NCBI GenBank assembly: GCA_903813345.2
Contig: CAIIXF020000010.1
Location: 24,099,740-24,163,739, forward strand
From: Owenia fusiformis
Lineage: Eukaryota > Annelida > Polychaeta > Sabellida > Oweniidae
DNA length: 64,000 nt
Direction of reading: 5' to 3'
Below, piece by piece: positions 3,858-61,885 of this stretch. Made by a program: the position numbers and the translations under genes. Position 1 is the stretch's first letter. The number at the start of each line of letters is the position of its first letter. The notes beneath the pieces are model-generated. The model searched no databases. It saw only the letters and a list, made by a program, of their open reading frames with translations, and was not told where the DNA came from.

Positions 3858-5376
3858 CATTTTTGGCTCGTGTCTTATCTTCCCATTTATCCTTTGAGCC
3901 TACAACCAATAGGGGCTGGATCTTGCTCCGAATCTGTGGTAAGGCCTAGGGGCACTGTTCAGTACCGGGTTAACCCAACCAATTGTTATAACATGCGTAT
4001 TCCCATACAAACGATCTGTCTTCCAGAGAAAACTAAGATTTGTGGAGATGTTTTGCTATCATTCCATCATACCCCAGTATGTCCTAGACTTAACCAATCT
4101 CGTCTGACCCAGTTATCTACTCCTGACGTCGTAGATCTGGGCCAGATGAGGTCCAATGCAAAAAAGGGGGGATATTTTTGCTTCTAGTTTAAGATGAACA
4201 TCTCTTCAACATATTCACCAATTTTCAAGGTGAACATTCTTGTAATAAACGAGAAATTTATGTGCACAAAATATCGCCGCGATTTACATGCCAAGGGTAT
4301 CAATCATAACAGACCGAATATTATATTCGGTCTGTTGGATACATACTACAGTATGTCCTCTGTCAGTCAAAAAAGTTTGAATCAAATCTCCCCACGAAAA
4401 TCAAAAGATCTCACCTGTTGAAGACGCCATCTATAGAAAATGTCAAAAATGTCATTCTGATTTTGACAGATGGAGGCAGGTCAAAAAGGTCAAATTTTTT
4501 AAAGAAAATGCACCTTAATCACATCAAATCAGGTCTCAGAGTTGGTCCTTACATACACTTTTTATCGTACCTAATAAAGGTACGATATTGTAGTCAGCTT
4601 GACGGGCGGGCGGCGTCTCACTTTTCAGCTTGTCTACAGGTTTCCAGCCAAACCATTTGACAGATTCATCTGAAATTTTCAGGAATGTTTCTACGTATCA
4701 AAGTTAAGAACTGATTAGTTTTTGGGCATTCTGGGTAAATTTTAAGGTGGCCATTTTGGATTTTCCATCCTAAAATCTTCACTTTCAAGACTTGTCTACA
4801 GGTTTCCAGCCAAACCATTTGACGGATTCATCTGAAATTTTCAGGGATGTTTCTACATATCAAAGTTAACAACTGATTAGTTTTTGGGCATTCTGGGTTA
4901 ATGTTAAGGTGGCCATTTTGGATTTTCTGTCCTAAAATCGTCACTTTCAAGACTTGTCTACAGGTTTCCAGCCAAACCATTTGATGGATTCATCTGAAAT
5001 TTTCAGGGATGTTTCTACGTATCAAAGTTAAGAACTGATTAGTTTTTGGGCATTCTGGGTAAATTTGAAGGTGGCCATTTTGGATTTTCCGTCCTAAATT
5101 CTTCACTGTCACACTGCTGTGTTTTAGGTACGATATTGTTCACGTCTGTGCCTTGTTCATTCATGTACTTGCCAAAATCCAACCACTGGTTATGCTAATG
5201 TAATTACAATAATTGGACTATATTTTTGTTTTTATAATGCCATCTATTCGTCTTCCCACTCGGCGGAATGATCTAATGGTTGAGTGTCTCCACCACAGAT
5301 CCGGAGCCAGATCCAGCCCCTATTGGTAGTAGGGTCAAAGGATAAATGGGAAGATAAGACACAAGCCAAAAATGCT
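3858..5376. mobile_element. 1.5 kb inverted-repeat element hosting a Helitron-like insertion
   Basis: About 85 bp at 3862-3945 recur as reverse complement at 5293-5372 (shared GTGTCTTATCTTCCCATTTA and CCAATAGGGGCTGGATC). Between the arms lie a near-perfect short palindrome around 4308-4336 (ACAGACCGAATAT and its complement) and a family-3 Helitron-like element (4562-5157). Open frames starting at 3786, 4194 and 4418 show no protein-family resemblance and are read as chance. Confidence 0.65.
4562..5157 (+). mobile_element. Helitron-like element, family 3, copy A
   Basis: The 5' subterminal ATCGTACCTAA (4564-4574) recurs inverted as TTAGGTACGAT (5124-5134). The 5' end forms a hairpin (GTACCT..AGGTAC) followed by a short GGGCGGGCGG run. 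The core is three tandem units of about 163 bp, each with GTCTACAGGTTTCCAGCC and GGTGGCCATTTTGGATTTT. The 3' end has CACGTCTGTG (small hairpin) then CCTTGTT. It is non-coding. Confidence 0.75.
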
Positions 5377-20453: not shown

Positions 20454-20586
20454 ATTTAAACTGCTTGTCAGTACTCTTGATGGGAGAGTCTCTTCATTGG
20501 ATATAGCTAACTATGGAAATCTAGAGTGGAGTATTGAAGCAGATGCTGCTCCACTGTTATCATCAAGCATCAGTAAAAACTTAGAG
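20454..20586 (+). CDS. EIF2AK3: PERK luminal domain exon a (STLDGR motif)
   Basis: Acceptor TTTCAG and donor GTAATT bound 133 nt. The first base completes a split codon, then 44 codons follow. The product contains V-S-T-L-D-G-R followed by S-L-D and L-E-W-S-I, the N-terminal beta-strand repeat of the PERK luminal domain (vertebrate IISTLDGRIAALD). The exon ends in phase 0. A Helitron-like element ends about 250 bp upstream. No signal peptide is encoded here, so an upstream exon is required. Confidence 0.93.
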
Positions 20587-24669: not shown

Positions 24670-26530
24670 AATTCAGCAAAACGATTGTTTATGAATACCT
24701 AGCAAGAGCTCAAAAAGTTCAATCATCTATTTATCTCAAAAAGACCTCAAAAACTGAGCTTGAATTAGAAATATGTCTTCTAAAATCTTCCTCGCCTGGA
24801 CCTGATGGGATTCTACCATCACTTATTAAGTCTGTAAGACAGTTTTTAATTGATCCGCTCTTGTATATATTTAACTTATCTTTTAAATCTGGTATTTTCC
24901 CAGACGCCCTCAAATTGGCCAAAGTAACACCTGTATTTAAAAAAGGAGTCACTACAAATCCTTTGAACTATAGACCAATTTCAGTTTTATCGGTATTTTC
25001 TAAATTGTTAGAAAAGCTCATGCACGCCAAACTCAATGGTTTTTTAGAACGTTTTGAAATTATTTTTACTTATCAATTTGGATTTCAGAAATTCAACTCT
25101 ACCTACATGGCCATTTTATATTTCATTGAACAAATTCGAAAATCAACTGATTTGGGGAAAACGAGCATTGGCATAACATTAGATTTTTCCAAGGCATTGG
25201 ACACTATTAATCATGACATTTTGATACAAAAACTTGAATATTATGGCATCAGAGGAATAGCTAAGTCCTGGTTTGAAAGGTATTTAAAAGACTGCAAACA
25301 ATATGTCACCATTAACAATTATGAATCTAAACAATCATCTCTAAATTGTGGTGTTCCGCAGGGCTCGGTACTTGGACCACTATTATTTATTCTTTACATA
25401 AATGATCTGCCTTTTGTTGACCCTAATCTAAAATTTATTATGTTTGCTGATGACACCAATCTTCTTGATAGTGATTATGATTTAAATGAACTTATGACTA
25501 GAACTAATGCAAACTTGAATTAAATAGATGACTGGATAAAAGCAAACAAACTTTCACTTAATATTGGCAAAACCAATGCTATTCTATTTGGACCCCAGAA
25601 AAAATCAAAAAAATCTGAATCTCAAAATACGCAATGAGAACATAAATTTCCGGGATAAAATTGACTTTCTTGGAATTATTATTGATAAAAACTTGAAATT
25701 TAAAGAGCACATAAAATCTATTGAAACAAAGATTTCTCGCGTCATTGGTTCTCTTTATCACATTAAACATCTACTTCAAATAGACAGTTTCAAAACAATT
25801 TACTACTCATTGATACACTCTCAATTAAATTATTGCAACATAATCTGGGGTAACACATTTAAATCATTTTATGATCGTCTACATAAACTGCAGAAACAAT
25901 TCTTAAGGCTAGCTTTAAATAAGGATAGACCTTCTCACTCCGCTCCCTTATTTGAAGATCTTAACATATTAAATATTTTTGATGTCAACAGATATTGTAC
26001 TGGTCAGTTCATGTACAAAATCTTTAATAAGCACCCCAGTCTTCCAAAAAATCTATTTCAAGACTTGTTTGATATCAACATTAATATTCATCATCATTAC
26101 ACAAGACAATTGCATTATTTTCATATCCCTAAATGCTCTTAACTTTCCCTTCGCTATCTAGGTCCTAATCTTTGGAATGCTCTACCACATGATATTAAAA
26201 AATGCTCCACTCTAAATATTTTCAAATCTTCATATAAAAAACTACTCATCTATCGATAATGTATAATACCAATATCATACTATACTGTTGATTTTATACT
26301 GATACCTGATTTTTGTAACATTTTTACATTGTACATCCTTAGATTAATTGTTAATACCATTTTTATATACCTACATGTAACATAATATAAGTGTTTTCTT
26401 TTATATGTAGTCTAGATGTCATTTTAATGATTTCTGTTAGACCGCAACATATACCCACTAGGGTGTCTAGCGGCTTGTTTTTATAGTGTATATTATATAA
26501 GAATTATGAAATAAATTGAATTGAATTGAA
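24670..26530 (+). pseudogene. Broken non-LTR (LINE) reverse transcriptase, CR1/jockey-like
   Basis: The translation shows the ordered RT motifs of LINEs: S-S-S-P-G-P-D-G (about 24775), N-Y-R-P-I-S-V-L, L-D-F-S-K-A-L-D with the first catalytic Asp, G-V-P-Q-G-S-V-L-G-P-L-L-F, and F-A-D-D with the catalytic pair. Downstream are F-L-G-I-I-I-D and N-L-W-N-A-L-P-H, typical of the C-terminal part. It is 5'-truncated with no endonuclease. It is interrupted by TAA at 25521-25523, a frameshift in an A-rich run near 25605 and TAA at 26140-26142. The 3' end has a TTGAA repeat (about 26510-26530). It is inserted in the sense direction of PERK. Confidence 0.88.
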
Positions 26531-29768: not shown

Positions 29769-31247
29769 TTATGTCCCCACCACATAGTGTGGGGCCATAT
29801 TGTCGTCCTAGGCGCGTCCGTCCGTCCGTCTGTCTGTCTGGTTGTCTGTCTGTCCGTCCGTACGTCCGGCAGTTTTCTCCAAAACCGCTACAGGTATCAC
29901 CGTCAAATTTTCAGGAATAACTTGTGAGTGCATACAGATGTGGATGAAAAAAAATTAACTCGATAGCTACTTCCTGTCGGCCATTTTGAGGTCAAATGCT
30001 AAAATCCTTGTCTGCAAACGGCTTCACAGTTGCTTTTAAAACTTTAACATCTTGTTCAGCTCACTTCATTCTACATCTGATTAGGTTTTGGACCTATTAG
30101 CCCAGTCTTGTCAGCCATTTTGAATGTCTGGAAAAAAGTTAGCGTGCGATAATACTTTGTATCATATTGAATGGTGTTTTTGAGTTTTCATACTTTAACT
30201 ATTTAGTAGCTTTATAAATAATTTCAGGTGTACTCTGTTGAAAAAGCCTATGTTATTGTTAACAGTAGTAATATGTGATAATTTTGTAAAAGAAAATCAG
30301 CAAAAACTCATAATCACTTTTTTATTGTCGGCCATTTTGTTTTTTTCCGTCCTAAAATCTTGTCTGTAAAGTCTTGTCTACACGTTTTCAGGTGAACCGT
30401 TTGGTGAATCAATTTCAAATTTTCAGGGATGAATCTTAGTATGAAAATCTAGATCTGATTAGTTTTTTGGCGTTCTGGGTAAATGTCAAGGCAGCCATTT
30501 TGGATTTTCCGTCCTAAAATCTTGTCTGTAAAGTCTTGTCTACGCATTTCCAGGTGAACCGTTTGGTAGATCAATTTCAAATTTTCAGGGATGATTCTTA
30601 GTATGAAAATCTAGATCTGATTAGTTTTTTTTGCGTTCTGGGTAAATGTCAAGGCAGCCATTTTGGATTTTCCGTCCTAAAATCTTGTCTGTAAAGTCTT
30701 GTCTACGCATTTCCAGGTGAACCGTTTGTTAGATCAATTTCAAATTTTTAGGGATGATTCTTAGTATGAAAACGTCGATCTGATTAGTTTTTTGGCATTA
30801 TGGGTAAATGTCAAGGCAGCCATTTTGGATTTTCTGTCCTAAAATCTTGTCTGTAAAGTCTTGTCTACGCGTTTTCAGGTGAACTGTTTGGTAGATCAAT
30901 TTCAACTTTTCAGGGATGATTCTTAGTATGAAAATCTAGAACTGATTAGTTTTTTGACATTCTGGGTAAATGTCAAGGCAGCCATTTTGGATTTTCCATC
31001 CTAAAATCTTGTCTGTAAAGTCTTGTTTAACTGTTTGACGGATCAATTCAAATTTTCAGGGGTGGTTCTTAGTATGAAAATCTAGAACTAGCTAAGTTTT
31101 GGGGATTCTGGGTAAATTTTAAGGCGGCCATTTTGGACTTTCCGTCCTCAAATTGTGTCAGTAAAGTCTTGTCTACTCATTTTCAGGATAACCATTTGAT
31201 GAGATCACCCCTTGGTGGGGACATTTTGTACACATTTGTGTTCTTGT
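29769..31247 (+). mobile_element. Helitron-like element, family 4
   Basis: The 5' ATGTCCCCACCA (29771-29782) recurs inverted as TGGTGGGGACAT (31213-31224). A 5' hairpin CCCCAC..GTGGGG is followed by a CCGT/CTGT tract (about 29815-29870). The core is about five tandem units of roughly 160 bp with GTCTTGTCTACGCATTTCCAG and GCAGCCATTTTGGATTTT, clearly homologous to family-3 units although the ends differ. The 3' hairpin ACAC-ATTT-GTGT (31230-31241) is followed by TCTTG. Confidence 0.78.
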
Positions 31248-46909: not shown

Positions 46910-47042
46910 ATAATGGGTGTTACTTGTTTGGAGACTTTACCCCAACAACTAGGCTTGATGAGATTGAGACCAAGGGAAATGACACAAGATATAATGGTGA
47001 CACATTTGACACTATTATAGCAGTAACACTGTGGAATTGGTG
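46910..47042 (+). CDS. EIF2AK3: PERK membrane-proximal luminal exon j (seed of the 65-bp array)
   Basis: Acceptor ATTTTAG and donor GTAAGT bound 133 nt. The product begins D-N-G-C-Y-L and ends R-Y-N-G-D-T-F-D-T-I-I-A-V-T-L-W-N-W-W, the segment entering the membrane (vertebrate HWWKEIV with the next exon). The final Trp codon is split two plus one with exon k. The last 58 nt of the exon plus the first 7 nt of the intron are the first unit of a tandem array that fills the following intron. If the donor were missed, the reading frame would hit TAA at 47044-47046, the first complete intronic codon. Confidence 0.93.
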
Positions 47043-49486
47043 GTAAGTACAAGATATGATGGTGACACATTTGACACTATTATAGCAGTAACACTGTGGA
47101 ATGGTGGTAAATACAAGATATGATGGTGACACATTTGACACTATTATAGCAGTAACACTGTAGAATTGGTGGTAAGTGCAAGATATGATGGTGACACATG
47201 TGACACTATTATAGCAGTAACACTGTAGAATTGGTGGTAAGTACAAGATATGATGGTGACACATTTGACACTATTATAGCAATAACACTGTAGAATTGGT
47301 GGTAAGTACAAGATATGATGGTGACACATTTGATACTATTATAGCAGTAACACTGTAGAATTGGTGGAAAGTACAAGATATAATGGTGACACATTTGACA
47401 CTATTATAGCAATAATACTGTAGAATTGGTTGTAAATACAAGATATAATGGTGACACATGTGACACTATTATAGCAGTAACACTGTGGAATTGGTGGTAA
47501 GTACAAGATATGATGGTGACACATTTGACACTATTATAGCAGTAACACTGTAGAATTGGTGGTAAGTGCAAGATATGATGGTGACACATGTGACACTATT
47601 ATAGCAGTAACACTGTAGAATTGGTGGTAAGTACAAGATATGATGGTGACACATTTGACACTATTATAGCAGTAACACTGTAGAATTGGTGGTAAGTACA
47701 AGATATGATGGTGACACATTTGACACTATTATAGCAGTAACTCTGTAGAATTGGTGGTAAATACAAGATATGATGGTGACACATTTGACAATATTATAGC
47801 AGTAACTCTGTAGAATTGGTGGTAAATACAAGATATGATGGTGACACATTTGACAATATTATAGCAGTAACACTGTGGAATTGGTTGTAAATACAAGATA
47901 TGATGGTGACACATTTGACACTATTACAGCAGTAACACTGTGGAATTGGTGGTAAATACAAGATATGATGGTGACACATTTGACAATATTATAGCAGTAA
48001 CACTGTAGAATTGGTTGTAAATACAAGATATGATGGTGACACATTTGACACTATTATAGCAGTAACACTGTAGAATTGGTTGTAAATACAAGATATGATG
48101 GTGACACATTTGACACTATTATAGCAGTAACACTGTAGAATTGGTTGTAAATACAAGATATGATGGTGACACATTTGACACTATTATAGCAGTAACACTG
48201 TAGAATTGGTTGTAAATACAAGATATGATGGTGACACATTTGACACTATTATAGCAATAACACTGTAGAATTGATGGTAAGTACAAGATATGATGGTGAC
48301 ACATTTGATACTATTATAGCAGTAACACTGTGGAATTGGTGGTAAATACAAGATATGATGGTGACACATTTGACACTATTATAGCAGTAACACTGTAGAA
48401 TTGGTTGTAAATACAAGATATGATGGTGACACATTTGACTATATTATAGCAGTAACTGTAGAATTTGTGGTTAATACAAGATATGATGGTGACACATTTG
48501 ACACTATTATAGCAGTAAGACTGTAGAATTGGTTGTAAATACAAGATATGATGGTGACACATTTGACACTATTATAGCAGTAACACTGTAGAAGTGGTTG
48601 TAAATACAAGATATGATGGTGACACATTTGACAATATTATAGCAGTAACACTGTAGAATTGGTTGTAAATACAAGATTTAATGGTGACACATTTGACACT
48701 ATTATAGCAGTAACACTGTAGAATTGGTGGTAAGTGCAAGATATGATGGTGACACATGTGACACTATTATAGCAGTAACACTGTAGAATTGGTTGTAAAT
48801 ACAAGATATGATGGTGACACATTTGACAATATTATAGCAGTAACACTGTAGAATTGGTTGTAAATACAAGATTTAATGGTGACACATTTGACACTATTAT
48901 AGCAGTAACACTGTAGAATTGGTGGTAAGTACAAGATATGATGGTGACACATGTGACACTATTATAGCAGTAACTCTGTAGAATTGGTTGTAAATACAAG
49001 ATATGATGGTGACACATTTGACAATTTTATAGCAGTAACTCTGTAGAATTGGTGGAAAGTACAAGATATAATGGTGACACATTTGACACTATTATAGTAG
49101 TAACACTGTGGAATTGGTGGTAAATACAAGATATGATGGTGACACATTTGACACTATTATAGCAATAACACTGTAGAATTGGTGGTAAGTACAAGATATG
49201 ATGGTGACACATGTGACACTATTATAGCAGTAACACTGTAGAATTGGTTGTAAATACAAGATATGATGGTGACACATTTGACACTATTATAGCAGTAACA
49301 CTGTGGAATTGGTGGTAAATACAAGATATAATGGTGACACATTTGACAATATTATAGCAGTAACACTGTAGAATTGGTGGTAAGTACAAGATATTATGGT
49401 GAGACATTTGACACTATTATAGCAATAACACTGTAGAATTGGTTGTAAATACAAGATATGATGGTGACACATGTGACACTATTATT
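46985..49486 (+). repeat. 65-bp minisatellite derived from PERK exon j and its splice donor, about 38 copies
   Basis: The unit is 65 bp with occasional 63- or 64-bp versions. Unit one is exonic sequence (46985-47042) plus the donor (47043-47049). Every later unit repeats the same exon end with small changes. The exonic TGG before AAT is TAG in most copies. The junction is GTAAGT in about a dozen intronic copies and TTGTAAATA, GGTAAATA or GGAAAGTA in the rest. The array stops mid-unit near 49486. There are no unique spacers. The unit length is not a multiple of three. On the minus strand the unit lacks stops over long stretches, which creates many spurious overlapping frames. Confidence 0.95.
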
Positions 49487-50110
49487 TGTATGGTTGTACA
49501 AATCCATGTCAATGTAAAGAGTAAATGTATGAAAAAATTTTGTTACAAAAAATCAGCAAAAAATTATATCCGTTTTTTTATATTTAGCCATTTTAGTTAA
49601 CATTGATTTGTCCATCTGTCTCGCGAAATCCACTTCTGGACCATTTGCATTAAAACCTCTGTCGATAGGATTCCCGTTTCAAGTTATTTTTGTTCAACAT
49701 TAATACAGAAAACTCCCACATGACTCCTGGTTCAAAAGCTCGCCTATTTTCAAAATGGTCGTTATTTTTCTCTCGAAATTCACTTTTGGCCCATTTTCTC
49801 ACTTTTGGCCCATTTTCTCCCTTTACAAATAATTTTAGGTGTCCAGTGGATTGTAAAAAGCTATGTCACTGTAAAGAGTAGTTGTTTGAATTGAAATAAT
49901 TTTGTTACAAAAATTCGGCAAAAATTATATCCATTTTCTGCCATTTTAGCCATCATTCACTTTTGAGCAACACCATGTGAGCCCAGTACCCACGGCACTA
50001 TTTATTTAAGATAACAATACAATACCTCTCTTTGAGGGCTCTAATTTAGTTTTGTTTGATACATTTCTAACTTTTGTTTCTGGATTTATGAGATGATCAT
50101 TTTATTCCAG
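49487..50110 (+). repeat. Intron remainder with a degenerate direct repeat related to the GGTGGGG-family core
   Basis: Two diverged copies of a roughly 350-bp sequence (about 49500-49600 and 49850-49955) share phrases such as TTTTGTTACAAAAA, TCGGCAAAAA and GCCATTTTAG. They resemble the core of the element at 29769-31247, so this is probably an old relic of that type. No coding exon is visible before the acceptor at 50110. Confidence 0.5.
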
Positions 50111-50219
50111 GAAAGAAGTGTTGGCCATCAGTCTGTGTTCTTCTATAGTTATGCACCTCTTTCTCACTAGAATCATGGTGAAATATAGAAGAGGTGTCTT
50201 GAAGAAACTTATATCAGAG
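50111..50219 (+). CDS. EIF2AK3: PERK transmembrane exon k
   Basis: Acceptor TTATTCCAG and donor GTAAGG bound 109 nt. One base completes the Trp codon, giving W-W-K-E-V-L. A hydrophobic stretch follows (A-I-S-L-C-S-S-I-V-M-H-L-F-L), then basic residues K-Y-R-R-G and K-K. This is the single transmembrane helix and positive stop-transfer flank expected between the PERK luminal and kinase domains. The exon ends in phase 0. Confidence 0.93.
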
Positions 50220-51125: not shown

Positions 51126-51910
51126 AGCGTACCTAATAAAGGTACGATATTGTCGTCAGGGCGGCGGGCGGGCGGCGGGCGGGCGGCGGGCGGGCGGCGG
51201 GCGGCGTCTCACTTTTCAGCTTGTCTACAGGTTTCCAGCCAAACCATTTGACGGATTCATCTGAAATTTTCAGGAATGTTTCTACGTATCAAAGTTAAGA
51301 ACTGATTAGTTTTTGGGCATTCTGGGTAAATTTTAAGGTGGCCATTTTGGATTTTCCGTCCTAAAATCGTCAATTTCAAGACTTGTCTACAGGTTTCCAG
51401 CCAAACCATTTGACGGATTCATCTGAAATTTTCAGGGATGTTTCTACGTATCAAAGTTAAGAACTGATTAGTTTTTTGGCATTCTGGGTAAAATTTAAGG
51501 TGGCCATTTTGGATTTTCCGTCCTAAAATCTTCACTTTAAAGACTTGTCTACAGGTTTCCAGCCAAACCATTTGACGGATTCATTTGAAATTTACAGGGA
51601 TGTTTCTACATATCAAAGTTAACAACTGATTAGTTTTTGGGCATTCTGGGTTAATTTTAAGGTGGCCATTTTGGATTTTCCGTCCTAAAATCTTCACTTT
51701 CAAGACTTGTCTACAGGTTTCCAGCCAAACCATTTGATGGATTCATCTGAAATTTTCAGGGATGTTTCTACGTATCAAAGTTAAGAACTGATTAGTTTTT
51801 GGGCATTCTGGGTAAATTTGAAGGTGGCCATTTTGGATTTTCCGTCCTAAATTCTTCACTGTCTTACTGCTGTGTTTTAGGTACGATATTGTTCACGTCT
51901 GTGCCTTGTT
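51126..51910 (+). mobile_element. Helitron-like element, family 3, copy B
   Basis: CGTACCTAA near the start recurs inverted as TTAGGTACG near 51878. It has a long GGGCGGC/GGGCGGGC tract (about 51156-51207), four core units of about 163 bp, and the CACGTCTGTGCCTTGTT end. It is one core unit longer than copy A. Confidence 0.75.
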
Positions 51911-61762: not shown

Positions 61763-61885
61763 ATATGAGACAGATTTTCATCAGGTACATTGTTTAGGTA
61801 AGGGTGGCTTTGGCGTGGTCTATGAGGCCATCAATAAACTAGATGACTGTCGCTATGCTATAAAGAGAGTCCAGTTACCTGCAAG
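61763..61885 (+). CDS. EIF2AK3: PERK kinase N-lobe exon m (glycine loop and catalytic lysine)
   Basis: Acceptor CCTTTTAG and donor GTAAGT bound 123 nt. The product reads Y-E-T-D-F, then [13 protein letters not shown] (the ATP-binding glycine loop), then D-D-C-R-Y-A-I-K-R with the catalytic lysine, ending L-P-A-R. It matches vertebrate [26 protein letters not shown] closely. No key residue is missing. A degraded Helitron-like 3' end lies about 40 bp upstream of the acceptor. Confidence 0.97.

Follow-up and report, generated by a model that had tools for sequence, protein, structure and literature searches.

An exon-edge minisatellite repeats a splice donor in the PERK gene of Owenia fusiformis and has counterparts in other genes of the same genome

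We found that the end of a juxtamembrane exon of PERK (EIF2AK3) in the annelid Owenia fusiformis, together with its splice donor, is repeated in a 65-bp tandem array that extends into the following intron. The array belongs to an already described kind, the junction-spanning minisatellites called 'mirages' in amphioxus, and what is new is its recurrence across genes of one genome. It most likely arose as a random tandem duplication, tolerated on condition that the first donor is the one used, and was then amplified. The DNA analyzed was a stretch of 64,000 nucleotides, hereafter the window (C10:24099740-24163739), of a chromosome-scale assembly of 498 Mb in 525 contigs.

PERK lies on the plus strand, with luminal exons from about position 20455 of the window and kinase exons from about 61763 to beyond the window end. 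A typed concatenation of the luminal exons matched the PERK structures 5v1d, 5sv7, 4yzs and 4yzy (E = 1.3e-40 to 8.6e-38), and the kinase exon just downstream (locus L009) matched PERK 4g31 at 7.7e-38, better than GCN2; these luminal and kinase matches bear out the gene identity proposed in a first-pass annotation of the sequence. Exon j is bounded by ...TTTTAG/ATAATG at its 5′ side and TTGGTG/GTAAGTAC at its 3′ side, continues the frame of the preceding exon (YPYDNGCYLFGDF...NGDTFDTIIAVTLWNWW) and is joined in phase 2 to exon k (K EVLAISL...), which encodes the membrane span. The acceptor for exon k had been placed at 50110, which is correct for the end of the AG, the exon itself beginning at 50111.

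46910 to 47042, plus strand: PERK exon j, 133 nt, juxtamembrane, ending ...TLWNWW in phase 2 (from splice borders, frame and neighbouring exons that match PERK structures)
50109 to 50110, plus strand: intron acceptor AG, outside the array (from sequence and frame)
50111 to 50219, plus strand: PERK exon k, encoding the membrane span KEVLAISLCSSIVMHLFLTRIM... (from frame and in silico splicing)
61763 to 61885, plus strand: first kinase-domain exon of PERK (borders inferred)

The window also holds other repetitive elements. A reverse transcriptase open reading frame (RVT_1, 1.5e-26) lies within a PERK intron at 24672-25520, and two arrays about 46 kb apart, at 4618-5111 and 51209-51860, have 162-bp consensus units that are alike as far as printed, with related-looking words in a third 162-bp array at 30331-31207.

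Tandem Repeats Finder (TRF) delimited the PERK array at 46984-49485, with a period of 65, 38.5 copies and 94% matches. Segmentation gave 39 unit starts, with 36 units of exactly 65 nt, unit 2 of 64 nt, unit 23 of 63 nt and a last unit cut at 35 nt that ends at 49486, so that both methods agree with the earlier description of about 38 units of 65 bp at 46985-49486. By segmentation and splice borders, the repeat unit consists of the 3′-terminal 58 nt of exon j and GTAAGTA, the first unit being the exon end, exactly as the first-pass annotation had read from the sequence. The comparison of exon j with the array that had been proposed there was carried out by BLAST, in which the window was searched with 11 PERK exons (borders approximate for some), and returned 39 copies of exon j; no other exon was repeated, the sole other extra match being 23 nt of exon A.

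46985 to 47049, plus strand: array unit 1, the last 58 nt of exon j plus GTAAGTA (from segmentation and sequence)
47050 to 49486, plus strand: 37 intronic units and one 35-nt partial unit (from TRF and segmentation)
47043 to 47048, plus strand: inferred authentic 5′ splice site GTAAGT (from borders and frame; the phase fits exon k, TG/G AAA)
47172 to 49385, plus strand: 12 downstream units with intact GTAAGT, at 47172, 47237, 47302, 47497, 47562, 47627, 47692, 48277, 48730, 48925, 49185 and 49380

Three array units searched against the whole assembly gave 16 matches, all of them within the PERK array (with the tool's proviso that a lack of matches does not prove absence), so the array is not a dispersed satellite; a Helitron- or transposon-borne repeat was rejected with it, as the unit matches at one locus only. 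GTAAGT occurred on the plus strand at 5.3 per kb in the array compared to 0.16 per kb in the remaining window, and the array donors are therefore not due to chance. A coding array was likewise rejected for both strands, since no open reading frame of at least 120 aa (stop to stop) was listed within it.

The donor region could be read in 38 units and was GTAAGT in 13 (unit 1 and 12 of the 37 downstream), GTAAAT in 22, GAAAGT in 2 and GTTAAT in 1, in line with the earlier claim that about a dozen downstream copies keep a perfect donor and that others vary. Eleven of the 12 intact downstream donors share the 9-nt context of the true donor and the twelfth differs at −3, with predicted U1 duplexes of about −10 to −10.5 kcal/mol for intact array donors, compared to −5.7 for GTG/GTAAAT and −4.2 for GTT/GTAAAT.

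Selection might have disarmed the decoy donors, and the diversity within the unit is striking in this respect: it peaks at positions 58 and 63 (H about 0.49), which are donor −1 and +5, and 15 of 36 full units are changed at both, carrying GTAAAT together with T for G as the last 'exonic' base. The excess disappears when events are counted, with 3 distinct variants in the 6 donor positions and 18 in the 59 others (Fisher p 0.38), and the donor 9-mer ranks fourth among the 65 circular windows of the unit. Two of nine inferred PERK donors moreover pair about as weakly (exon C, −4.5; exon h, −5.3), and an array in BLOC1S5 described below contains 29 intact GTAAGT in 32.8 copies, showing that many strong donor copies can persist without disarming. 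We rejected selective disarming on these grounds and consider it very unlikely.

The frame determines what use of a downstream donor would produce. Exon j ends in TG and the intron starts with GTAAGT, so that reading through the first donor gives TGG TAA.

47044 to 47046, plus strand: in-frame TAA reached if the first donor is unused (translation ...LWNWW*)

When each of the 12 intact downstream donors was joined in silico to exon k, the product had the same end, ...AVTLWNWW followed by the stop, in every case, with the stop 125-2333 nt upstream of the new junction. The predicted product would retain the luminal domain of PERK but lack both membrane span and kinase. An mRNA with such an early stop is expected to be removed by nonsense-mediated decay (NMD).

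These outcomes, along with the preserved context and U1 pairing of the downstream donors, speak for a regulated poison device, in which low or regulated downstream use would yield unstable mRNA or soluble luminal PERK, and array length would tune the level of PERK. That unrelated genes (tetraspanin, MRPL52, mTOR; see below) show this anatomy too argues against a device specific to PERK, and exon definition should favor the first donor of a 133-nt exon. We therefore regard regulated poison donors as unlikely. Competition between identical donors in classical tests tends to be won by the donor nearer the acceptor, which runs against use of the first donor.

Other consequences for the transcript were also considered. 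Pseudo-exons made from single units were judged to have too weak an acceptor, the pyrimidine fraction before their AG being 0.35-0.55 compared to 0.60-0.65 at three inferred PERK acceptors, and intronic polyadenylation was rejected, as the plus strand of the array intron has no AATAAA and a single ATTAAA (49649). Five units (46985-47308) folded as RNA were stabler than all 100 shuffles (z −2.88), which could simply stem from base pairing among the repeats, since tandem copies pair by construction.

The array has a history of turnover. We found 30 distinct types among the 39 units, with identical or near-identical runs at lags 1, 3, 6 and 7, indicating duplication and turnover in blocks. Downstream units no longer make coding sense, as TAG replaces the TGG codon of the exon in 29 of 36 full units; unit 1 keeps TGG and ranks 21st of 36 in mean distance, and unit 8 is one base from the exon unit. 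The exon peptide across the junction aligned with human PERK with a score that none of 2000 shuffles attained, mostly through YPYDNG and WWKE, suggesting that the coding exon predates the array. None of the solved PERK chains matched exon j, so that its ancestral state rests on the human sequence. The converse possibilities, that a repeat already present in the intron supplied the exon end or that the array is an assembly artefact, are both at odds with the continuity of the exon and the homology seen across the junction, with the 30 unit types and the two units bearing small deletions, and with independent similar arrays elsewhere in the assembly, and they appear extremely improbable.

The array breaks off in the middle of a unit at its 3′ end, about 620 nt before the acceptor at 50110, which is in unrelated sequence.

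49494 to 50008, plus strand: truncated member of a dispersed repeat family, separated from the array end by 7 nt (at least 234 matches, including itself)

In four of five fetched loci of this family the alignment starts exactly at 49494 and is preceded by other repeat sequence, so the copy in the window looks truncated at the array, and we infer that a rearrangement may have removed the original 3′ border of the array. The family consists of tandem monomers of about 340-360 bp, preceded by a TCCG-rich stretch in three of the five loci. An intron gained by tandem duplication was rejected: the duplicated copies do not contain both splice sites, and since the acceptor lies beyond the dispersed repeat, the intron was not created by the duplication.

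The order of events in the mirage-type origin that we favor would be as follows. A tandem duplication would have copied the terminal 58 nt of the PERK exon along with the 7 intronic nt that follow, and unequal exchange or slippage would then have raised it to 38.5 units. The outermost copy still links the exon body to a complete donor, and use of this first donor would give normal mRNA; on our proposal, it is because of this copy that the array was tolerated and is presumably neutral. The remaining copies would have become intronic filler that lost its coding sense and turned over in small blocks, and a rearrangement would have cut the 3′ edge and joined the array to the dispersed repeat.

We also assessed whether such arrays recur by searching the assembly for three tandem donors at set gaps, using the reversed pattern as control. 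Three GTAAGT at 44-74 nt gaps were no more frequent than their reverse (8311 vs. 8358) and at 15-44 nt gaps gave 6859 compared to 6393, while AG/GTAAGT at 30-60 nt gaps gave 568 compared to 328 and CAG/GTAAGT 133 compared to 53; as a single 8-mer, AG/GTAAGT occurs 19,109 times and its reverse 33,902 times. Among the matches listed, we delimited 18 arrays, eight from AG/GTAAGT (C1, C2 and the first on C3) and ten further ones from CAG/GTAAGT, the latter search giving 11 arrays of which one was shared with the AG/GTAAGT set. TRF on the flanks found an array containing the donor at all 18 loci, and at 11 of the 18 the exon peptide running into the first unit had a Pfam match at E<1e-3 (9/18 above the gathering score).

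L018: tetraspanin exon array, 54 bp x 18.2 (Pfam 6.5e-11)
L040: Muted/BLOC1S5 exon array, 52 bp x 32.8 (Pfam 5.9e-15)
L042: NIF phosphatase exon array (Pfam NIF 4.3e-6)
L044: Cys-loop channel exon array (Pfam Neur_chan_LBD 2.4e-15)
L045: UGDH exon array (Pfam UDPG_MGDP_dh_N 1.5e-10)
L046: MRPL52 exon array (Pfam 6.1e-7)
L057: Caprin exon array (Pfam Caprin-1_C 3.4e-7)
L058: Kringle exon array (Pfam 6.6e-6, below gathering score)
L060: Il2rg-family exon array (Pfam 6.1e-8)
L063: kinase exon array (Pfam Pkinase 1.3e-4, below gathering score)
L064: B56 exon array (Pfam 4.7e-11)
L049: mTOR exon array, outside the set of 18 (PDB 3.9e-16; no Pfam match above the cut-off)

For UGDH and B56, a solved-structure match reached the last codon given. 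No Pfam match at E<1e-3 was found for the other seven of the 18 (L041, L043, L056, L059, L061, L062 and L065), several of which show an acceptor-like AG followed by an open frame, and nothing was found for L047 and L048, also outside the set, for which one frame each was compared with Pfam. These two and the mTOR array came from the search for three GTAAGT at 44-74 nt gaps. In 13 other exons (the 11 with Pfam matches, L043 and mTOR) the first unit starts 15-50 nt inside the exon and takes 2-29 nt of the intron, compared to 58 and 7 nt in PERK. Thus the array, which the first-pass annotation called unusual, is not singular: 12 other exons with homology at E<1e-3 share the arrangement, whose kind is already in print. 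Judged from exon homology at the array edge, and with two related donor motifs as probes, arrays at junctions were recognized in at least 13 genes, namely mTOR, PERK and the 11 with Pfam matches.

Two of these exons appear to carry repeats on both sides. The tetraspanin exon (C1:441248-444361, at 1234-2440) has 120 bp x 2 at its acceptor and 54 bp x 18.2 at its donor; the 54-bp unit keeps the frame, without an in-frame stop in the approximately 600 nt read, and the downstream donors, if used, would add hydrophobic 18-residue repeats. In UGDH (C2:33702800-33704700, at 168-1694), 130 bp x 7 seemingly spans the acceptor side and 45 bp x 12.7 the donor side.

Among the 14 exon-edge arrays, PERK included, seven interrupt introns of phase 2, where reading into GTAAGT terminates translation directly, and in 11 of the 14 a stop is reached within 21 nt. 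About 22% of introns are in phase 2 as a general background. The difference from this value gives p about 0.02, with the LRR-like L043, which is below threshold, counted among the 14. A phase-2 excess could reflect selection for harmless mis-splicing, which the small sample and approximate background make a possible lead only.

For control, we took the reversed 8-mer, which gave 11 loci on C1 and C2 among the matches listed, and fetched six of them; in five of the six, TRF detected an array that includes the motif (none in L051). Of 34 open segments of at least 30 aa that touch the array edges, one (at one of the six loci) had a Pfam match below 1e-3, an SNF transporter exon (L054). There, a 52-bp array (C2:24841300-24842900, at 643-884) begins about 25 nt past the donor of the exon and is wholly intronic by TRF. 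An exon edge within the repeat was thus found at 0 of the 6 control loci compared to 11 of 18 donor arrays (Fisher p 0.016; p 0.15 if 1/6 is used), a loose comparison, as a donor motif by its nature picks out junctions, and reading frames were chosen by eye for the donor arrays and not for the controls.

Splice-donor DNA might itself be a hot spot for the birth of tandem repeats, for example through transcription-linked breaks, so that exon-end arrays are actively generated. The triple AG/GTAAGT counts favor this, with a 3.1-fold per-site excess despite the rarer 8-mer, except that triple matches inside one array are not independent. Counted as distinct loci on C1 and C2, there were seven donor loci, all TRF-confirmed arrays, and 11 control loci, five of them confirmed among the six fetched, giving close rates per genome-wide site (3.7e-4 vs. 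3.2e-4), and GTAAGT alone showed no excess at 44-74 nt gaps. Donors are thus not evidently the cause of the arrays, and we think a hot spot quite improbable. We read the pattern as random minisatellite birth, not driven by donors, in which some arrays cross junctions and survive, leaving room for a modest excess of array birth at donors. If C1 and C2 (20% of the assembly) are typical, the genome would contain about 36 AG/GTAAGT arrays at 30-60 nt spacing, the majority at exon ends, and other donor sequences and spacings would add further arrays.

The closest relatives that we found are in amphioxus, where 'mirages', minisatellite-like tandem copies of exon-intron boundaries, are described in Adh3 and the globins BflGb6 and BflGb9 (PMC3087553). 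They are reported to leave regular splicing undisturbed and to be unstable in length, with splice signals in many but not all units, cluster boundaries that escape homogenization and either exon edge affected. The PERK array is alike: its unit spans the exon-intron boundary (58 exonic and 7 intronic nt), GTAAGT is present in 13 of 38 units, and by sequence, frame and phase the outermost unit is the authentic exon edge and the rest are intronic. The amphioxus cases, as far as described there, concern few genes and few units (6 and 3 in BflGb6; units of 10-72 bp in Adh3), whereas the PERK array has 38.5 units and other genes are affected too.

In human CBS, a 31-bp VNTR of 16-21 copies, c.1444_1467+7(16_21), lies at the exon 13/intron 13 boundary (PMC2630376), and on our reading of the notation its unit combines the terminal 24 exonic nt with 7 intronic nt, resembling PERK (24 + 7 vs. 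58 + 7) at half the unit length. CBS further differs in that its array is polymorphic in human with a reported effect on activity: more units are reported to be associated with lower enzyme activity (PMC5188458), so such arrays need not be neutral, which speaks for poison donors. For a 68-bp junction duplication of CBS, a strong preference for the more distal site is reported (PMC2630376), a point against our favored reading. The minisatellite of human IFI6 (G1P3, 6-16) also multiplies splice donors in a transcript, and two downstream repeat units are said to serve as donors and give isoforms (PMC4526556; title of Turri et al. 1995), again in favor of poison donors, whereas downstream donors in PERK would meet an immediate stop if used. 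In the literature covered (titles and the starts of abstracts, with few subscription papers), neither an exon-edge array in PERK nor recurrence at this genome-wide scale was found among the matches listed.

These results shift the surprise from the single gene PERK to the whole genome, and exon-edge arrays illustrate one route by which introns lengthen. Gene conversion from the arrays could also bring stop codons into the exon, given that 29 of the 36 full units in PERK contain TAG. How identical 5′ splice sites compete has mostly been addressed with artificial constructs. Here, a natural series of identical sites, from few to 38 copies, occurs in several genes of one animal, such that the genome is a natural test of how cells choose the right splice site among identical ones. 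More speculatively, and with considerable doubt on our part, exon-edge minisatellites may be present in dozens to hundreds of genes of this annelid, with the exon-proximal donor reliably picked out from up to 37 intron-proximal copies, and array length that varies between individuals might tune the share of poison transcripts from core genes such as PERK and mTOR.
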